Positions 4,570 through 26,859 of a stretch of 32,712 bases of DNA are shown here, piece after piece. The DNA lies in the IMG/VR virus record IMGVR_UViG_3300030109_003668, positions 1-32,712 of that record. One strand, written 5' to 3'. The notes below the pieces were generated by a model. The model ran no database searches, was not told where the DNA came from, and was given only the letters and a program-made list of their open reading frames with translations. The stretch comes from a virus. A program made the translations under genes and the position numbers. The first letter of the stretch is position 1. Every line of letters starts with the position of its first letter.

Positions 4570-5328
4570 ATGAACGCATTGGATATTTTAAAGCGATTCG
4601 ATACTTTCCTAACAAAAGCAGAAAATGAAGAAGTTAAACTTGCTTCAATGAAACTTGCAAATGGAGCAGTATTGGAAGCAGATGAATTTGCCGAAGGACA
4701 TTCAGTTTTTATAGTATCAGATGATGATCGTGTTCCATTGCCAGTTGGCGAATATGAATTGGAAGATGGCAGAATTATGGTAGTAGGCGAAGTTGGAAAA
4801 ATTGGGAAAATTGGTCTGGAATCTATACCTGAAGCAGAAGAAGAAGGGTATAAAGATGGTATTGCTGATGCCAAAGAAGACATCAAAGAAGATATTGATA
4901 AAACAAAACTTCGAGATGATGGAAAAGAAGCAGCAGTTGATGATTGGGCAGGAATGGAAAAAAGAATCAAGAATCTTGAGGATGCCATTGCTGATCTAAA
5001 AGAAGACAAAGTTTCTGTTAAGAATTCTGATGATGATTCACCACAAGATCCTGATAAATATGAGGGTGGATATGTTTCTAAGCAAGAGTTTGAAGATCAA
5101 ATCAATGAAATCAAAGATATGGTTTCTAAAGTTGAAGCGAAATTAAACGAGGGCAAAGAGGAAGATGGTGCATTTGTCGTTAAAGAAGAATTAGAAGAAA
5201 CAAAATTATTTAAGCATAACCCTAATGCAGAAAAGAAATCTAATCTCAAAATTAAATTAGGAGAGAATAGAGGACATTTATCTGTAATGGACAAAGTTAT
5301 GGAGAGAATTTCAAATATTAAAAATTAA
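4570..5328 (+). CDS. Capsid scaffolding protein
   Basis: The 252-aa protein is very acidic and helical. Residues 30-80 form a beta-like start (LANGAVLEADEF, GEYELEDGRIMVVGEVGKI) and residues 90-235 are Glu/Lys/Asp-rich with coiled-coil character (KRIKNLEDAIADLKEDK, QINEIKDMVSKVEAKLNEG). The C-terminus is basic (KSNLKIKLGENRGH). Composition and place between the protease and the major capsid gene fit an assembly scaffold that is degraded by the protease. A conserved ELEDGRIMVVGE segment is, from memory, shared with other Bacteroidetes phage scaffolds. Confidence 0.75.
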   Translation: MNALDILKRFDTFLTKAENEEVKLASMKLANGAVLEADEFAEGHSVFIVSDDDRVPLPVGEYELEDGRIMVVGEVGKIGKIGLESIPEAEEEGYKDGIADAKEDIKEDIDKTKLRDDGKEAAVDDWAGMEKRIKNLEDAIADLKEDKVSVKNSDDDSPQDPDKYEGGYVSKQEFEDQINEIKDMVSKVEAKLNEGKEEDGAFVVKEELEETKLFKHNPNAEKKSNLKIKLGENRGHLSVMDKVMERISNIKN

Positions 5329-15890: not shown

Positions 15891-16136
15891 ATGGATTATA
15901 GTAACAACAAATATAGGATAGAATCTGACAAAGTAATGGGTTATAAGTCGTATAGTAAAAAACGAAAAATTGATCAATTACTATTTTTAAATGCTGATCA
16001 GTATTGTAATTTAGGATCAGATTCAACAAAAACTGATCGATTAATAGCAGAAGCAAATAGTAGATATATTTACAAATTGATAAAAAGTCTAGATTATAAT
16101 CTGGGATTTATGCTATTAAAATATCGTGAAGAATAA
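15891..16136 (+). CDS. Hypothetical early protein, 81 aa
   Basis: First gene after the iterons. The protein is basic at the N-terminus (MGYKSYSKKRKIDQLLF) and helical, with LNADQYCNLGSDSTKTDR and a C-terminal ANSRYIYKLIKSLDYNLG. I have a recollection of similar LNADQYxNLGSDST proteins in marine flavobacterial phages, without function. Being next to the repeat array it could act there, for instance as a binding protein, but no HTH is clear. Confidence 0.65.
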   Translation: MDYSNNKYRIESDKVMGYKSYSKKRKIDQLLFLNADQYCNLGSDSTKTDRLIAEANSRYIYKLIKSLDYNLGFMLLKYREE

Positions 16137-16527
16137 AAAAAGATCAAGAAAAAGTTTAGTAAAAAAATTAGACAAGGTCTTTAGCGAATACATTAGGCGC
16201 AGACATTCAGTCGCCGATCTTTCAGAATGTGTAACTTGTGGTAAAATTGAGAAATGGCAAAAACTTCAATGTGGCCATTTTATGTCTAGGAAAAATTATT
16301 CAACGAGGTGGGATGAAAAAAATTGCCAAGTCCAATGTGCAGGTTGCAATGTCTTCCGATATGGTGAGCAATATAAATTTGGTCTTTGGTTAGATGCTGA
16401 GTTTGGCGAGGGATCAGCTGAAGAATTATTAAGAAAATCAAAAGAAATAATACATTTAGATAATTTTGATCTTATGGTGTTAATTGAAAATTATGAGAAA
16501 AAAATTATAGATTTAGATAAAGAATAA
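16126..16527 (+). CDS. NinG/Rap-like recombination nuclease
   Basis: The 133-aa protein has the zinc pattern of the lambda NinG family: CVTCG (C35, C38), LQCGHFMSR (C49, H51), the N of DEKNCQVQC (66), and QCAGCN (C71, C74). NinG/Rap is a structure-specific nuclease acting on recombination junctions. The core is preceded by a basic N-terminus (KNKKRSRKSLVKKLD). The start is GTG at 16126, overlapping the upstream stop by 11 bases. It is followed by a strong terminator. Confidence 0.82.
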   Translation: MKNKKRSRKSLVKKLDKVFSEYIRRRHSVADLSECVTCGKIEKWQKLQCGHFMSRKNYSTRWDEKNCQVQCAGCNVFRYGEQYKFGLWLDAEFGEGSAEELLRKSKEIIHLDNFDLMVLIENYEKKIIDLDKE

Positions 16528-22108: not shown

Positions 22109-22357
22109 ATGGGATATAATAATTTTGACAAAATCCACCGAGTTTTAAAAGAGTGGTACAACGATGATCAGATCAAAGAAATTTGGAAACGAATAAAAGC
22201 ATTTGATCACGAAGAACTAGAAAAAAGAAAACTATTTAAACAAATACAAAATGAGCAAGAAGAAAGTAAAAATATCAAGCGTAAAAGCAAATCCAAAAAA
22301 TCCAAGAGTAATAAAGGATCTGATGTATCAGAAACTTCTGCACTCGATAAAGAGTAA
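22109..22357 (+). CDS. Hypothetical protein, 82 aa, Lys/Ser-rich tail
   Basis: Residues 1-48 are helical and charged (KIHRVLKEWYNDDQIKEIWK). From residue 49 the protein is an unstructured KNIKRKSKSKKSKSNK tail, and here it overlaps the ParB-like gene by 107 bases in another frame. The tail may be just what the A-rich overlap encodes. The first half looks like a true gene, with A-rich start context after the DnaA-like stop. Role unknown. Confidence 0.55.
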   Translation: MGYNNFDKIHRVLKEWYNDDQIKEIWKRIKAFDHEELEKRKLFKQIQNEQEESKNIKRKSKSKKSKSNKGSDVSETSALDKE

Positions 22358-22874
22358 AACTTATATGCACGAAGCCAGACCATTAATTGTTGATGAAAAC
22401 AATGTGGTTTTAGGTGGAAATATGAGATTAAAAGCATTTACTGAATTGGGTTATAAAGAAGTTTGGGTAGATGATATGAAAGATTGGTCAGAGGAACAGA
22501 AACAAGAATTTGTAATTGCAGACAATGTGAACTTTGGGGAGTGGGATTATGATTTATTGGCTAACCAATATGATGTAGTAGATCTTGATACTATGGGTGT
22601 TGAACTTGATCCGAATATGTTTGGGGTAGATGATGATGATTCAGTCAAGGATGCAGAAAATGTTAAGTTTAATGATTACACTATTTATTTTGCTAATGAA
22701 GAACAAATGGATATTTGGTATGGCTTTATGAAAAAGTTAAAAAATAAATTTAAGGATCACGAGAATATTTCTAGCAGAATATTAATGTATATTGCAGAAG
22801 TTTATGATGAAAACAAAATGAGTGAATCTGAATTAGTATTAAAGTTTGTAGAACAAGAAGTAGATGGCGAGTAA
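22251..22874 (+). CDS. ParB-like (ParB/Srx N-terminal domain) protein
   Basis: Residues 5-100 match the ParB-like nuclease domain: KISSVKANPKNPRVIKDLMY, HEARPLIVDENNVVLGGNMR (GGNMRLKA is the conserved GE/GxxR motif) and EVWVDDMKDWSEEQKQEFVI, ADNVNFGEWDYDLLA. The C-terminal half is acidic (DDDDSVKD) with a helical end. Such phage proteins often lie beside PAPS-reductase-like genes, as here; E. coli IbrB is a related example. It may hydrolyse ATP/CTP or bind DNA; the role is unknown. Confidence 0.78.
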   Translation: MSKKKVKISSVKANPKNPRVIKDLMYQKLLHSIKSKTYMHEARPLIVDENNVVLGGNMRLKAFTELGYKEVWVDDMKDWSEEQKQEFVIADNVNFGEWDYDLLANQYDVVDLDTMGVELDPNMFGVDDDDSVKDAENVKFNDYTIYFANEEQMDIWYGFMKKLKNKFKDHENISSRILMYIAEVYDENKMSESELVLKFVEQEVDGE

Positions 22875-23982
22875 ATCAGATTTAATTTGGTTAGAAACAA
22901 ATGTATATCAAGAAGCATTAAAAAGAATTGATCAGATCTATAACTCACACGATGAAGTTTGGTTAAGTTTTAGTGGTGGTAAAGATAGTTTGGTTTGTCT
23001 TCATTTAATCTTGGAATATTTTGATCAAGAAAAAATTACAGATAAATTAAATGTGTTATTTAGGGATGAAGAAATTATTAATGGAAGCATCAGAAGATTT
23101 GTCCTTAGTTATATTGATCACCCTAGACTAAATTTTAGGTACTATGCCACACAATTAGATTCCGAAATATATATATTAGGCGAAAAGAAAACTTTAATTC
23201 AATGGGATGAAAATCGCAAATGGATTGTAGATAAGCCAGAATGTGCTATTACGCTAGATGGCGTACATAGTCAATTCACTTTTGATAAACACTTATTTGG
23301 TAAGTCTCAGAAAAGATGTTGTACGATTGTTGGACTTAGAGCCGATGAATCATTAATGAGATTTGCAGGAATAACTATGAGCAAGGTTTGTCATATGACT
23401 AGAAACCCAGATGTTAAAAATGTAACAATGGGAAAACCGATATATGATTGGAGTGAAAAAGATATATTTAAATATCTGCACGATAAAAAGATCGACTATT
23501 GTGAAATTTATGATCATCAAGTCTTCAATAAAGATCCATTAAGAGTTGCCTCAGCAGTACACGCAGAAGCGGCAAAGAGATTGTATAAAATTAAGACAAT
23601 AGATCCTGTGTTATATAATCAGATTATGGATGTTTTTCCAGAAGTTGATGTTCAAGCCAGATACTATAAAGATATGACTAAGGGCAATGCTAATAAAATT
23701 GCCTATTCTTATAGGGAAAAAGCAAATGGAGATCCTTGGAGTGCTATATATATGTATATAGATCAAGAAATAAAAGATCTTAAACAAAATAAAATGGCTA
23801 AAAGAAAAGTAGCCAGAACACAAATAACTAGAAGAAATGGAAAACGAGGTGCATTTGGTGGTTTTCCTGCGTTATATGTATTCAAGAAGATAATTGGTGG
23901 TGGTTATAAACGAAATATAATTCCGACACCAGATTTAAATGATGAGTATTTTGAATTTGAAAATAGAAGCAATAGAGCATAG
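22864..23982 (+). CDS. PAPS reductase-family (IbrA-like) protein
   Basis: The PP-loop SFSGGKDS (35-42) for ATP/PAPS binding lies in WLSFSGGKDSLVCLHLILEY. Further typical elements are LFRDEE (65-70), RCCTIVGLRADES (residues about 151-163), with a Cys pair, and KPIYDWSEKDIFKYLHDKKI. These match the phosphoadenosine phosphosulfate reductase superfamily, which includes IbrA and DndC. Length (372 aa) and lone occurrence with ParB-like genes on both sides fit the phage/IbrA subgroup. Biochemical role is not settled; nucleic acid modification is one possibility. Confidence 0.82.
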   Translation: MASKSDLIWLETNVYQEALKRIDQIYNSHDEVWLSFSGGKDSLVCLHLILEYFDQEKITDKLNVLFRDEEIINGSIRRFVLSYIDHPRLNFRYYATQLDSEIYILGEKKTLIQWDENRKWIVDKPECAITLDGVHSQFTFDKHLFGKSQKRCCTIVGLRADESLMRFAGITMSKVCHMTRNPDVKNVTMGKPIYDWSEKDIFKYLHDKKIDYCEIYDHQVFNKDPLRVASAVHAEAAKRLYKIKTIDPVLYNQIMDVFPEVDVQARYYKDMTKGNANKIAYSYREKANGDPWSAIYMYIDQEIKDLKQNKMAKRKVARTQITRRNGKRGAFGGFPALYVFKKIIGGGYKRNIIPTPDLNDEYFEFENRSNRA

Positions 23983-24340
23983 TCTAGTTTATAAGCATTT
24001 TGGATCTAAGATGCGTAAAGAACAAGTAGCAATAAAGAAGTTTGATGATAAGACTAAATACTTAGGTGCATTTGTTGATGATTATTTGGTTGGTTGTGTA
24101 GGTTGGCAAGAAATTAGTAAAGATCACATTAGATACAAAACAGACTATGTCGTTAATAACTTTAGAGGTAGAAAGATATACACAAATTTGTGGAAGTCTA
24201 GGGATTTAATTAACTTTAAGGAAAAAATAAGTGTTATATCTGCTTATTGTACTCCTCTATCTATTAGTATGTATATGAAATATGATTTCAAAATACAAAG
24301 TGTAAAAGGAAATATTAAATATCTAAAAAAAATTATATGA
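23939..24340 (+). CDS. GNAT-like acetyltransferase
   Basis: The 133-aa protein has the order of a GNAT fold: YLGAFVDDYLVGCVGWQEIS (strands 2-4), HIRYKTDYVVNNFRGRKIYT, where V-x-x-x-x-R-G-R/K corresponds to the acetyl-CoA pyrophosphate loop, and a late strand/helix ISAYCTPLSISMYMKYDF. It overlaps the PAPS-reductase-like gene by 44 bases in another frame, the sign of close coupling. The target is unknown; it could modify a protein, a small molecule or a base. Confidence 0.65.
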   Translation: MMSILNLKIEAIEHSLVYKHFGSKMRKEQVAIKKFDDKTKYLGAFVDDYLVGCVGWQEISKDHIRYKTDYVVNNFRGRKIYTNLWKSRDLINFKEKISVISAYCTPLSISMYMKYDFKIQSVKGNIKYLKKII

Positions 24341-24738
24341 GGGATTATAAGGGGTGGACAGGCAAACAAAGAAAAGAATCTCTCAAACTAACAAACAAAG
24401 CAAAAGAACTTGGTTGGATCAAATTGCCTACTTGTTGTAACAGGTGTGGACAAACTAAGGGAATATTGCAATTACACAATGAAGATTACTCAGTAACTTA
24501 TAATGTATTAAGGGATGCGTTAGATCGGTTTCCTGCACAGATTAAAAAGTCGGAAATGAAAAAAGTTGCTGAAGTTTTGGAAGAACTATGTTGGCGATGT
24601 CATATGATCCACCACTCTACGCATAGAAATCCACAGGCGTGTGAAAATTACTTTAACGAAATAAAAGCAGGTAAACAATATCCACCTGTTTATAGACATA
24701 ACTTTGATATATTAAAATATGAACACAACATTTGGTAA
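24337..24738 (+). CDS. HNH-type zinc endonuclease-like protein
   Basis: The protein has a zinc pair CCNRCG (C34, C37), LQLHNEDYS (H47), then LCWRCHMIHHS (C85, C88, H89, H92, H93), followed by CENYFNEI. The C-x2-C / LHxxDY / CxxCHxxxH order is that of HNH nucleases, in which the His of LH is catalytic. It overlaps the GNAT-like stop by four bases (ATGA) and the second ParB-like gene by 20. It could act in packaging or in the ParB/PAPS cassette. Confidence 0.7.
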   Translation: MRDYKGWTGKQRKESLKLTNKAKELGWIKLPTCCNRCGQTKGILQLHNEDYSVTYNVLRDALDRFPAQIKKSEMKKVAEVLEELCWRCHMIHHSTHRNPQACENYFNEIKAGKQYPPVYRHNFDILKYEHNIW

Positions 24739-25240
24739 TGATCCAATTAGTAAAGTTACTTGGATCAATGTAGATAATTTAAAGAGTAACAATTATAATC
24801 CTAATGTAGTATTGAATCAAGAACTTAAACTTCTAGAATTCAGTATTTTAAAGAATGGTTGGATTCAGCCAATTCTAGTAGGTAAAGACAATACGATAAT
24901 TGATGGTTATCACAGACATTTTTTGTCTAAACAAAGTAAGAAACTAAGAGAAAAATATAATGGACTTGTGCCTTGTGTTATTATGGACTTAGACACTCCA
25001 GAAAGAATGTTACTTACTATTAGGATCAATAGAGCCAAAGGAAATCACGTGGCAGTTTTAATGCACGAAATTGTAACAGAATTAATTAACGACTACGATT
25101 ATACAATAGAACAAATACGAGAGGGAATTGGATGTACAAAACAAGAAGTTGATCTTCTGTATAAAAAAGGCGTGTTTGATGCGTTAAATATAAAAGAGCA
25201 TAAATATAGTAAGGCGTGGAAGTCGCCTAAGTCAGTATGA
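24719..25240 (+). CDS. Second ParB-like (IbrB-like) protein
   Basis: Residues 13-115 match a ParB-like nuclease domain: KVTWINVDNLKSNNYNPNVV, LLEFSILKNGWIQPILVG, NTIIDGYHRHFLSKQ (the GYHR corresponds to the GERR motif) and VIMDLDTPERMLLTIRINRA. The C-terminal part has a helical element with IEQIREGIGCTKQEVDLLYK, an HTH. It resembles E. coli IbrB, which occurs with IbrA. It differs from the first ParB-like protein (22251), so they are not simple duplicates. Confidence 0.78.
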   Translation: MNTTFGNDPISKVTWINVDNLKSNNYNPNVVLNQELKLLEFSILKNGWIQPILVGKDNTIIDGYHRHFLSKQSKKLREKYNGLVPCVIMDLDTPERMLLTIRINRAKGNHVAVLMHEIVTELINDYDYTIEQIREGIGCTKQEVDLLYKKGVFDALNIKEHKYSKAWKSPKSV

Positions 25241-25410
25241 TAGAATTATTAAGACATATTACAGGTTTTTGTGGAGAGCATTGGCATCCAAATTTATGGA
25301 CTGCATTAGCATCATTGCCAATTATTGCACCGACTTGTAATTTAATTTATTACAAAATATGGGGAAAGAAAAAACAACAAAAACAACACTTAAAAAAGAG
25401 CAATTCTTAG
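25237..25410 (+). CDS. Small membrane protein, 57 aa
   Basis: Overlaps the upstream stop (ATGA) and the terminase small subunit by 52 bases. The product begins MIELLRHITGFCGEHWHPNL, followed by a hydrophobic span (WTALASLPIIAPTCNLIYYK) and a Lys/Gln tail. The LTGFCGExHP motif recurs, as I recall, in small membrane proteins of Bacteroidetes phages. Single TM expected. The tail may come from overlap coding. Confidence 0.55.
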   Translation: MIELLRHITGFCGEHWHPNLWTALASLPIIAPTCNLIYYKIWGKKKQQKQHLKKSNS

Positions 25411-25724
25411 AAGCGTTAGAAAAATCTATGGGAATAGTGAGTCAAGCAACAAAAAAAGTTGGCATTGATAGAACGACACCATATAGATGGGCAAGAGAAG
25501 ATAAAGAATTCAAGCAGAAAGTAGAAGAAATACAAAATGTAGTATTAGACTTTGCTGAAACAAAATTATATAATTTAGTAGATAGTGGTAATCCAAGTGC
25601 CACTATTTTTCTGTTAAAGACTAAAGGTAAGCACAGAGGTTATGTGGAACGACAAGAAATAGTTGGAGCAGATGGAAAAGACATAGACATAAATATTGAA
25701 GTTATCCATACAAATAAAGACTAA
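25359..25724 (+). CDS. Terminase small subunit
   Basis: The 121-aa protein has an HTH in SQATKKVGIDRTTPYRWARE (residues 28-47), then a long helix (EFKQKVEEIQNVVLDFAETK), and NPSATIFLLKTKGKHRGYVE, the usual terminal motif of this TerS family. It recognises phage DNA and regulates the large subunit. It is directly upstream of, and overlapping, the large subunit gene by 29 bases, as expected. Confidence 0.85.
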   Translation: MGKEKTTKTTLKKEQFLEALEKSMGIVSQATKKVGIDRTTPYRWAREDKEFKQKVEEIQNVVLDFAETKLYNLVDSGNPSATIFLLKTKGKHRGYVERQEIVGADGKDIDINIEVIHTNKD

Positions 25725-26859
25725 TGTAGTTTTTGATCACTTAGAGCAAAGCGATAAAAGAATTATTATTGAGCAAGGTGGTACGAGATCTGGTAAAACA
25801 TATAATATTTTGCAATGGATCTTATTTAGATATTGTATGGAAAACAATAAAAAGATCATTACAATAACTAGAAAAAATGGTCCGGCATTAAGGGGATCTG
25901 CAATGAGAGATTTCTTTGAGATCTTGAACACTAAAGGACTTTATTCAGAAGACAACCATTTTAAAAGTATTAACGAGTATTTTTTTATGGGGAATATCAT
26001 TGAGTTTGTTAGTCTTGATGAGCCACAGAAAATTAGAGGTAGGAAACGAGATGTGCTTTTTATTAACGAGGGTAACGAATTAAATTGGGAAGATTTTTTT
26101 CAGTTAAACATAAGAACAAATGAAAGAATAATTTTAGACTTCAACCCCTCTGATGAATTTCATTGGATATATGACAAAGTTATACCTAGAGAAGATTCAG
26201 ACTTTTTCCAGACTACATATTTAGATAATCCATTTTTAGAAGAATCCTTAGTTAAAGAGATTGAAAGACTAAAGGGAACAGATGAGAACTATTGGCGTAT
26301 ATATGGCTTAGGCGAAAGAGGACAAAGCAGATCACTTGTATTTTCTTTTGGATTAGTAGATTCTATTCCAGAAACTGCTAAAAGAATTGGAATGGGTTTA
26401 GACTTTGGGTATAGCAATGATCCTACTGCTTTAGTAGAAACTTATATTGAGGGGGAAAATATGTACATAAACGAATTGTTATATAGAACAGAAATGACAA
26501 ACCAAGATATAGGCAGAACATTTGAATTGTTAAATTTAGATCGTAGAGATGAGATCTGGGCAGATTCCTCTGAGCCAAAATCAATTGCAGAAATACATAA
26601 AATGGGTTGGAATATTAAACCAACATTTAAAGGAGCAATTAACCTCAGCATTGATATGATGCGAAGATATAAGATCTTACTGACTAAAACTTCTGCAAAC
26701 TTAATTAAGGAATTTAAGAACTATAAATATATAGAAGATAAAAATGGAAATATTACTAACAGGCCATTTGATGCTTTTAATCACTCAATAGATGCCACAA
26801 GGTATAGTATTGTAAACAGACTATCTCGCCCCAATTATGGAACTTACGCAATTAGGTAA
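25696..26859 (+). CDS. Terminase large subunit
   Basis: The 387-aa packaging ATPase/nuclease. Walker A is GGTRSGKT (28-35), Walker B is VLFINE (120-125), and the RNase H-like nuclease Asp residues are D236 in MGLDFGYSNDPT, D290 in IWADSSEP and D366 in HSIDATRY. Start is TTG at 25696, upstream of the conserved QTKTNVVF-like opening; no ATG lies nearer in frame. The shortness agrees with PBSX-like terminases of Bacteroidetes phages. It is followed by promoter P3. Confidence 0.93.
   Translation: MKLSIQIKTNVVFDHLEQSDKRIIIEQGGTRSGKTYNILQWILFRYCMENNKKIITITRKNGPALRGSAMRDFFEILNTKGLYSEDNHFKSINEYFFMGNIIEFVSLDEPQKIRGRKRDVLFINEGNELNWEDFFQLNIRTNERIILDFNPSDEFHWIYDKVIPREDSDFFQTTYLDNPFLEESLVKEIERLKGTDENYWRIYGLGERGQSRSLVFSFGLVDSIPETAKRIGMGLDFGYSNDPTALVETYIEGENMYINELLYRTEMTNQDIGRTFELLNLDRRDEIWADSSEPKSIAEIHKMGWNIKPTFKGAINLSIDMMRRYKILLTKTSANLIKEFKNYKYIEDKNGNITNRPFDAFNHSIDATRYSIVNRLSRPNYGTYAIR

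Follow-up and report, generated by a model that had tools for sequence, protein, structure and literature searches.

The question

What is the function of a run of five phage genes that sets two different ParB-like proteins, a PP-loop protein, a GNAT-like protein and an HNH-like protein directly ahead of the terminase genes? The run lies in IMG/VR record IMGVR_UViG_3300030109_003668, a metagenomic contig analysed here over its whole length of 32,712 nucleotides (hereafter referred to as the window). An original prediction, made from the letters of the window, had proposed a system that marks and processes DNA or one that counters host defence.

Layout of the cassette

As predicted, five open reading frames (ORFs) on the plus strand occupy positions 22251–25240 in the order ParB1, PP-loop, GNAT, HNH-like and ParB2, with overlapping ends. 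They and their downstream neighbours are as follows.

22251–22874, plus strand: ParB1, 207 amino acids, ParB/Srx-like with a C-terminal extension; core gene
22864–23982, plus strand: PP-loop ATP-pyrophosphatase of the PAPS_reduct fold, 372 amino acids, phrog_2302, C213 clade; core gene
23942–24340 (alternative start 23939), plus strand: predicted GNAT-fold acyltransferase; exchangeable finishing enzyme
24337–24738, plus strand: HNH-like zinc protein; companion of the finishing enzyme
24719–25240, plus strand: ParB2, 173 amino acids, ParB/Srx-like, IbrB-like; core gene
25237–25410, plus strand: 57-amino-acid ORF between ParB2 and TerS, no family match in Pfam or PHROGs
25359–25724, plus strand: terminase small subunit TerS (phrog_4044, E=2.2e-8); flanking landmark
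25696–26859, plus strand: terminase large subunit TerL (PF04466, E=2.3e-24; PF17288, E=3e-15); flanking landmark

The coupling by short overlaps was borne out, successive cassette ORFs sharing 11, 41–44, 4 and 20 bp from 5′ to 3′. The cassette does precede the terminase genes, TerS and then TerL following beyond the 57-amino-acid ORF, which is found within the gene run of the near-identical relative L001 only. TerS is 69–78% identical to its counterparts in relatives.

The PP-loop protein and its ParB-like partners

The PP-loop protein carries the motif SFSGGKDS and matches PF01507 (E=1.2e-13) and phrog_2302 (E=2e-83). SGGKDS, DEE, QWD, GxRAxES and KPxxDW are invariant in alignments of the family, and C213 is its single near-invariant cysteine, kept in 93–97%. 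A sister clade has proline at this position, and a sodium:solute symporter is present in 31 of the 33 loci of that clade.

Several familiar assignments were tried and rejected. The model of CysH, the assimilatory PAPS reductase, gave 18.7 bits against a cut-off of 165.1 (TIGR00434), and the C-terminal catalytic cysteine motif is absent from the alignment. The hint of a DndC identity was not upheld: TIGR03183 scored 28.1 bits against a cut-off of 290.4, C213 is the only conserved cysteine, and the protein lacks a cysteine dyad and Fe-S cysteines. Neither dndD, dndE nor a desulfurase gene was found beside the window cassette or among the annotations of the named phages examined, and PADLOC returned weak matches only, to DndC, BrxP and MTase_II. 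The hint of an IbrA identity also failed, as no match to DUF3440, which marks canonical IbrA, was obtained with E up to 1, and the protein belongs to phrog_2302 (2e-83) rather than phrog_424 (3e-17). PHROGs places the Lachnospiraceae-type PP-loop proteins in phrog_2302 too, where they form a second clade, and not among the IbrA-like proteins.

ParB1 matches phrog_620 (E=4.5e-23) and phrog_498 (E=4.8e-26), and ParB2 matches phrog_2159 (E=6e-63). The family profile of ParB2 covers the ParB N-domain and the start of its helix-turn-helix (7o0n, 1.2e-6), with an invariant RINRAKG where the CTP motif ENxxR of ParB would stand. We rejected an identity as partition CTPases because of this replacement in ParB2 and because ParB_N fell below the Pfam cut-off for both proteins (16.4 and 23.4 bits against 26.3). 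ParB-like partners of this general kind are found in DNA-base modification, where DpdB is one example (PMC12839542) and the neighbourhoods of CmoX genes provide others (PMC12783734).

Recurrence of the module and exchange of its finishing enzymes

The cassette keeps its order, together with TerS and TerL, in those close relatives whose sequence spans this part and in a far diverged one (L016), which is more than chance would give; gene order is conserved among relatives, and in this respect the original prediction stands. A core of ParB1, the PP-loop protein and ParB2 defines a module that we observed in 92 PP-loop clusters of diverged phages, from marine, gut and soil sources as well as actinophages and Bacillus phages, and the TerL genes downstream of it belong to several unrelated Pfam families. 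ParB1 adjoins the PP-loop gene in 91 of the 92 clusters. ParB2 is paired with it in nearly all, the organism tallies of the two genes being identical. Cultured phages are known for the core form (Mycobacterium phages Akoma and Kamiyu) and for the form with a methyltransferase (Bacillus phage 035JT001 and Arthrobacter phage Salgado), whereas Pegunavirus Kahve lacks the cassette.

For the GNAT-like protein the single-sequence match was weak (PF13673, E=0.0018). The call was secured by a match of its family profile to GNATs in the PDB (E=3.6e-8) and by an AlphaFold2 model (pLDDT 94.3) that superposes on 3lod with Z 16.1 over 126 residues at 2.1 Å. Profile and model confirmed the GNAT fold; acyl-CoA-dependent transfer is the putative activity. 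The structural neighbours of this protein and of the methyltransferase are too broad a set to indicate a substrate. Finishing enzymes with these folds can also act on proteins, tRNA or small molecules, which counts against the hypermodification reading proposed below.

Among the 92 clusters, 44 have a GNAT, 31 a small SAM-methyltransferase (three Nocardia-type loci carry the latter) and none has both. This exclusion is strong when kinship is ignored (Fisher, 1.4e-12), and in independent pairs on the tree none went the same way and about seven went opposite ways (median p 0.016). The PP-loop tree shows at least 17 switches between the two enzymes. A third kind of finisher, a HalD/2OG-Fe(II)-like protein, occupies the finisher slot of one locus (L154). 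Searched alone, the methyltransferase was found at 49 loci, 45 of which have the PP-loop gene; three of the others are cut by contig ends and one is a real exception. The corresponding search for the GNAT covered the window-type subgroup, because the whole family is too diverse for a scan of the collection, and 37 of its 38 loci have the PP-loop gene.

The HNH-like protein gave a weak match to phrog_2255 (E=0.001), no match to Pfam families, HNH included, and no useful relative in the PDB. Its family keeps a zinc-type pattern, CxxC...HxxDY...CxxCHxxxH. For this protein 'HNH-like' is therefore the safe term. The gene is present in 69 of the 76 clusters with a finishing enzyme as compared with 3 of the 16 without one (p 1.5e-8), and independent pairs gave about 9:0 (p 0.004).

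One slot shared with known DNA-modification pathways

The terminases of Bclasvirinae and of Gordonia phage Wooper are homologous (66–71% DNA identity) and are preceded by homologues of a ParB-like protein, gp1. The gp1 of mycobacteriophage Akoma, which is the ParB1 of its cassette, is related to ParB1 of the window (E about 1e-8) and 48–52% identical to gp1 of Calamitous, Reprobate, Bane2 and Wooper (E 1e-39 to 6e-47). The slot between gp1 and terminase contains DpdA-QueC-QueD-QueE-FolE, Tet_JBP-ADDT, Tet_JBP-ADDT-5hmU DNA kinase or the pair of PP-loop and ParB2 genes. Thus, in a ParB-X-terminase arrangement, the cassette core occupies the place of known DNA-modification enzymes in relatives, a comparison that rests on actinophages carrying the core only, without GNAT or HNH. 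The DpdA/Que pathway of phage Rosebush yields dPreQ0 at about 28% of G (PMC6884629). A point against the comparison is that the mycobacteriophages could have gp1 in common as a mere packaging-region gene.

The cassette as a probable DNA-hypermodification module

Since the slot holds known modification pathways in relatives, the finishing enzymes are mutually exclusive, the methyltransferase and window-type GNAT families occur almost exclusively in the cassette and its place before unrelated terminases is fixed, we infer that the five genes form a module for hypermodification of the phage's own DNA, with a probability of roughly 0.7. The same neighbourhood evidence strongly supports the DNA-marking part of the original prediction. 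What follows on substrate, sequence of steps, chemistry and protection is put forward on this basis.

The core would place a primary modification onto phage DNA. The PP-loop enzyme may adenylate a base, or a small molecule later joined to a base, in the manner of TilS, QueC or the thiouridylases, and the two ParB/Srx proteins may be its DNA- and nucleotide-binding partners, like the ParB-like ATPase DpdB in the Dpd system. The GNAT would acylate the newly added group, a methyltransferase or 2OG-Fe(II) enzyme finishing it in other phages, and the HNH-like protein, tied to finishing, might open access to the DNA or cut unmarked DNA. As the operon runs directly into the terminase genes, marking probably takes place no later than packaging and would shield the DNA against host nucleases; countering host defence is a plausible benefit, as in other hypermodified phages. 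More tentatively, the PP-loop protein and the two ParBs might join a small molecule, perhaps amino-acid-like, to bases, for capping by an interchangeable acyl- or methyltransferase or a 2OG oxygenase/halogenase, such that one intermediate leads to different final bases in related phages; the symporter of the sister clade might supply the small molecule.

Among other readings, the cassette could be a restriction-modification weapon: the phage's DNA would again receive its mark from the core and finisher, and the HNH-like protein and ParB nucleases would destroy unmarked DNA of the host or of rivals, for attack rather than camouflage. The co-occurrence of HNH and finishing enzyme fits it, and ParB-like proteins with nuclease activity have been described (PMC5512222). 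However, 13 of the 92 clusters have neither HNH nor finisher, several HNH genes lie on the opposite strand or elsewhere, and the nuclease is only putative, lacking a close Pfam family; we consider this reading unlikely, if still worth keeping in view. DNA phosphorothioation or base thiolation, with a DndC- or thiouridylase-like PP-loop protein putting sulphur into the mark, would suit the fold, related at low score to the DndC and BrxP models, and the retention of C213. It appears distinctly unlikely in view of the proline in the sister clade, the low DndC score and the absence of a cysteine dyad, Fe-S cysteines, DndD/DndE and an adjoining desulfurase.

The IbrA/IbrB pair of E. coli has been reported as co-activators, and the cassette might similarly regulate phage or prophage transcription. 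In kin phages ParB2 is annotated as IbrB and the PP-loop gene as IbrA, and the fixed place ahead of late genes, next to terminase, is compatible with late regulation. Such a role leaves unexplained both the exclusive GNAT/methyltransferase/2OG slot and the swap for known modification pathways in Bclasvirinae, and canonical IbrA (DUF3440, phrog_424) is a different family, so that we find it very improbable. Hardly credible is a role of the PP-loop protein in sulphur metabolism, as a genuine PAPS reductase raising sulphate assimilation by the host: the Pfam name PAPS_reduct speaks for it, and phage genes of this fold are often classified as auxiliary metabolic ones (e.g. PMC10434257), but the CysH score and missing cysteine motif speak against it, as does the constant linkage of the PP-loop gene to two ParB genes.

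Relation to known systems and significance

The hypermodification reading is best placed beside the Rosebushvirus 7-deazaguanine operon (ParB-DpdA-QueC-QueD-QueE-FolE-terminase), which fills the corresponding slot between homologous ParB and terminase genes and combines a ParB partner with an ATP-using PP-loop enzyme, QueC. The cassette differs in lacking a transglycosylase and the preQ0 pathway, in having a PP-loop protein of another family and in adding an exchangeable GNAT/methyltransferase and the HNH-like gene. The thymidine hypermodification sets of Gordonia, Rhodococcus and Mycobacterium phages (ParB-Tet/JBP-amino acid:DNA transferase-5hmU DNA kinase) have the slot and ParB partner in common with it, whereas the Tet/JBP, ADDT and kinase families are absent from the cassette; modular finishing enzymes are known in thymidine-type pathways. 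IbrA/IbrB resembles it in that a ParB-like protein comes after one of the PAPS_reduct fold, ParB2 being IbrB-like, but has no counterpart of the extra ParB, the GNAT/methyltransferase and the HNH-like gene, besides the family difference given above. DndC/SspD and BrxP share the PP-loop fold and a ParB-like partner (DndB) in the system, and are set apart by the cysteines, companion genes and score already described. Mu Mom is likewise a GNAT-fold enzyme in a DNA-modifying phage, but the GNAT family showed no detectable sequence link to the single Mom sequence compared (hhalign probability 0.7%). In the CmoA-CmoX-CmoY carboxymethylcytosine pathway, too, a core mark is followed by an ATP-dependent addition with a ParB gene often near, although the enzymes are unrelated.

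Our search of the open-access literature retrieved no account of this cassette, and an earlier prediction may exist elsewhere. Judged from sequence comparisons, it is very probably a previously undescribed DNA-modification machine with interchangeable finishing enzymes. If so, a DNA-modification machine would lie behind a whole class of phage genes that at present go by the names 'PAPS reductase', 'ParB-like nuclease', 'IbrA/B' or sulphur auxiliary gene, and phages with the core only, with the methyltransferase and with the GNAT would offer an intermediate and two capped forms of the same base. An arms race with host defences that sense modifications would favour such swapping of the last step.

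The cassette and its conservation

The original prediction of a ParB/PP-loop/GNAT/HNH-like/ParB cassette, coupled by overlaps and lying before the terminase, was borne out by the open reading frames of the window, the whole of a metagenome-derived virus record of 32.7 kb.

22251-25240, + strand: five consecutive genes encoding ParB1, a PP-loop protein (PAPS_reduct fold), a GNAT, an HNH-like protein and ParB2

Successive genes overlap by 11, 41-44, 4 and 20 bp, and ParB2 is followed by a 57-aa ORF and then by TerS and TerL. We also checked the conservation of gene order: ParB1-PP-loop-GNAT-HNH-ParB2-TerS-TerL is retained in the near-identical contig L001 and the more distant L002-L014 and L018, as far as each contig extends. 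An 82-aa ORF (22109-22357) shares 107 bp with ParB1 and, among the searched relatives, occurs only in L001. The related locus L015 carries a homing-endonuclease-like ORF (4773-5201), apparently inserted between the PP-loop and HNH-like genes. Away from the cassette, the window encodes another HNH-like or NinG-like protein (16126-16527).

The PP-loop protein has an intact SGGKDS motif and matches PF01507 (1.2e-13) and phrog_2302 (2e-83); as a candidate CysH or DndC, it scored far under the cut-offs of both families. Its sole conserved cysteine, C213, is present in 97% of 77 diverse relatives and in 93% of another set. The window GNAT gave a weak match from its single sequence alone; the family profile matched PDB GNATs at 3.6e-8, and the AlphaFold2 model (pLDDT 94) superposed on GNATs with Z up to 16.1. 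Judged by profile and predicted structure, the assignment is firm at the family level. The ParB2 profile matches the ParB N-domain and the beginning of the helix-turn-helix, with an invariant RINRAKG in place of the ENxxR of ParB CTPases. The HNH-like family, a putative nuclease, retains CxxC...HxxDY...CxxCHxxxH.

Exchange of finishing enzymes

Module copies were gathered from viral contigs, using profiles of the PP-loop protein and of ParB2 as queries. Alongside the core (ParB1, PP-loop and ParB2) stand an HNH-like gene and a single finishing enzyme, with the core either split (PP-loop-finisher-HNH-ParB2) or together (PP-loop-ParB2-finisher-HNH). The finisher is a GNAT or else a small SAM-methyltransferase whose family shares the motifs GxxPxIHD, DLxxxTGLL and ARRxxPE; the model of this methyltransferase (pLDDT 95) superposes on SAM methyltransferases with Z up to 17. 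Among 92 clusters defined at 80% PP-loop identity, 44 had the GNAT, 31 the methyltransferase and none both (Fisher p 1.4e-12, kinship ignored). In a kinship-aware test on independent tree pairs, about 7 of 14 were opposite and none went the same way (median p 0.016). The label changed between GNAT and methyltransferase at least 17 times on the PP-loop tree; an earlier 74-row tree had 27 changes versus 29.5 when shuffled, that is, nearly no clustering of labels. The HNH-like gene tracks the finisher, occurring in 69 of 76 clusters with one and 3 of 16 without.

Searches with each finisher profile alone led back to the module. The methyltransferase profile found 49 loci, 45 with a PP-loop gene, three ending at a contig edge and one exception; the window-type GNAT profile found 38, 37 with a PP-loop gene and one cut. 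Neither search yielded a locus with both finishers. The methyltransferase locus without a PP-loop gene (L322:3100-3627) is a real exception. Its single ParB resembles a fusion of the ParB1 start with the ParB2 end; the intervening PP-loop gene may have been lost by deletion, or the contig may be misassembled.

In another related locus, L154, the finishing slot is filled by a HalD/2OG-Fe(II)-like protein (L154:4379-4993; PF23169, 6e-9). Enzymes related to HalD use free amino acids as substrates, which may hint at the nature of the module's substrate.

Genomic position and a second clade

For 41 module copies, the large ORFs lying downstream matched Terminase_6N (27), Terminase_3 (19), GpA (4), TerL_ATPase (2) and others, where one protein may match more than one family; the module thus precedes terminases of several unrelated families. 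It also lies before the terminase in Arthrobacter phage Salgado, Mycobacterium phage Akoma and the M. abscessus prophage prophi79-1. Bacillus phages have it at the genome end, and a Rhizobium phage copy adjoins no annotated terminase.

A second clade of phrog_2302 PP-loop proteins, which lack C213 and have different conserved cysteines, was found in 33 loci (L174-L206) of Lachnospiraceae, Treponema and similar genomes. ParB1-PP-loop-ParB2 is present there, with TerS/TerL-like genes downstream in the four loci inspected gene by gene (L176, L184, L193 and L200); GNAT, methyltransferase and HNH genes occurred in none of the 33. Many of these loci encode a second small PP-loop (PAPS_reduct) protein, and 31 of 33 carry a sodium:solute symporter (PF00474; phrog_20720, 'unknown function') that is found in no first-clade locus.

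L176:3018-4472: sodium:solute symporter, adjoining ParB1-PP-loop-ParB2-terminase

A phage symporter is here linked to a putative DNA-modification core, and a transporter in this position would fit the consumption of a small molecule. The canonical IbrA-IbrB pair of Streptococcus phage CHPC1062 (L370:4995-6765) differs in having neither a second ParB nor a finisher and in lying away from the terminase region.

Positional replacement in actinophages

Relatives of Akoma (Pipefishvirus) were found by searching with its terminase gene. In Akoma, gp1 ParB is followed by two small genes and then by PP-loop, ParB2 and terminase. Where it has PP-loop/ParB2, Calamitous (Rosebushvirus) has a 7-deazaguanine operon (ParB-DpdA-QueC-QueD-QueE-FolE-terminase), and Bane2 (Coopervirus; ParB-Tet_JBP-ADDT-TerS-TerL) and Wooper (Gordonia; ParB-Tet_JBP-ADDT-5hmU DNA kinase-unknown-terminase) have thymidine-type sets. 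Reprobate (Acadianvirus) has ParB-Tet_JBP-like-two unknown-TerS-TerL; its gp2 (L374:807-1667) is annotated as queuine tRNA-ribosyltransferase, probably a misannotation, the only Pfam match being a weak one to Tet_JBP. Kahve (Pegunavirus) showed no such modification genes in the same comparison.

In Rosebush DNA, about 28% of G is dPreQ0 by LC-MS/MS (PMC6884629), and the ParB gene of the Rosebush-type operon has been proposed as DpdB-like (PMC6392294); a ParB-Tet-aGPT-PPlase-5hmU kinase set has been reported as thymidine hypermodification (PMC11955845). Since the gp1 ParBs are homologous (48-52% identity between Akoma gp1 and those of Calamitous, Reprobate, Bane2 and Wooper) and the relatives carry known modification pathways, the PP-loop/ParB2 pair sits in their DNA-modification slot. 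This positional replacement, read from gene order and homology, is the strongest clue to function.

A proposed two-stage modification

Two-stage DNA hypermodification is the best supported reading: the PP-loop enzyme with its ParB partners would lay a core mark, which the finisher would then acylate, methylate or oxidise. DNA is taken as the probable substrate on three grounds: the slot comparison, the association with ParB proteins and the location ahead of the terminase. The installed group could be nitrogen, sulphur or amino-acid-like. The PP-loop protein lacks DndC-type cysteines, which argues against phosphorothioation; its single conserved cysteine would still allow a sulphur route. Within the two-stage scheme, the HNH-like protein could give access to DNA or destroy DNA without the mark. 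None of the open-access papers searched describes the cassette; a paper outside that set could. Hypermodification of phage DNA is already known, and the cassette is predicted to be a new variant of it.
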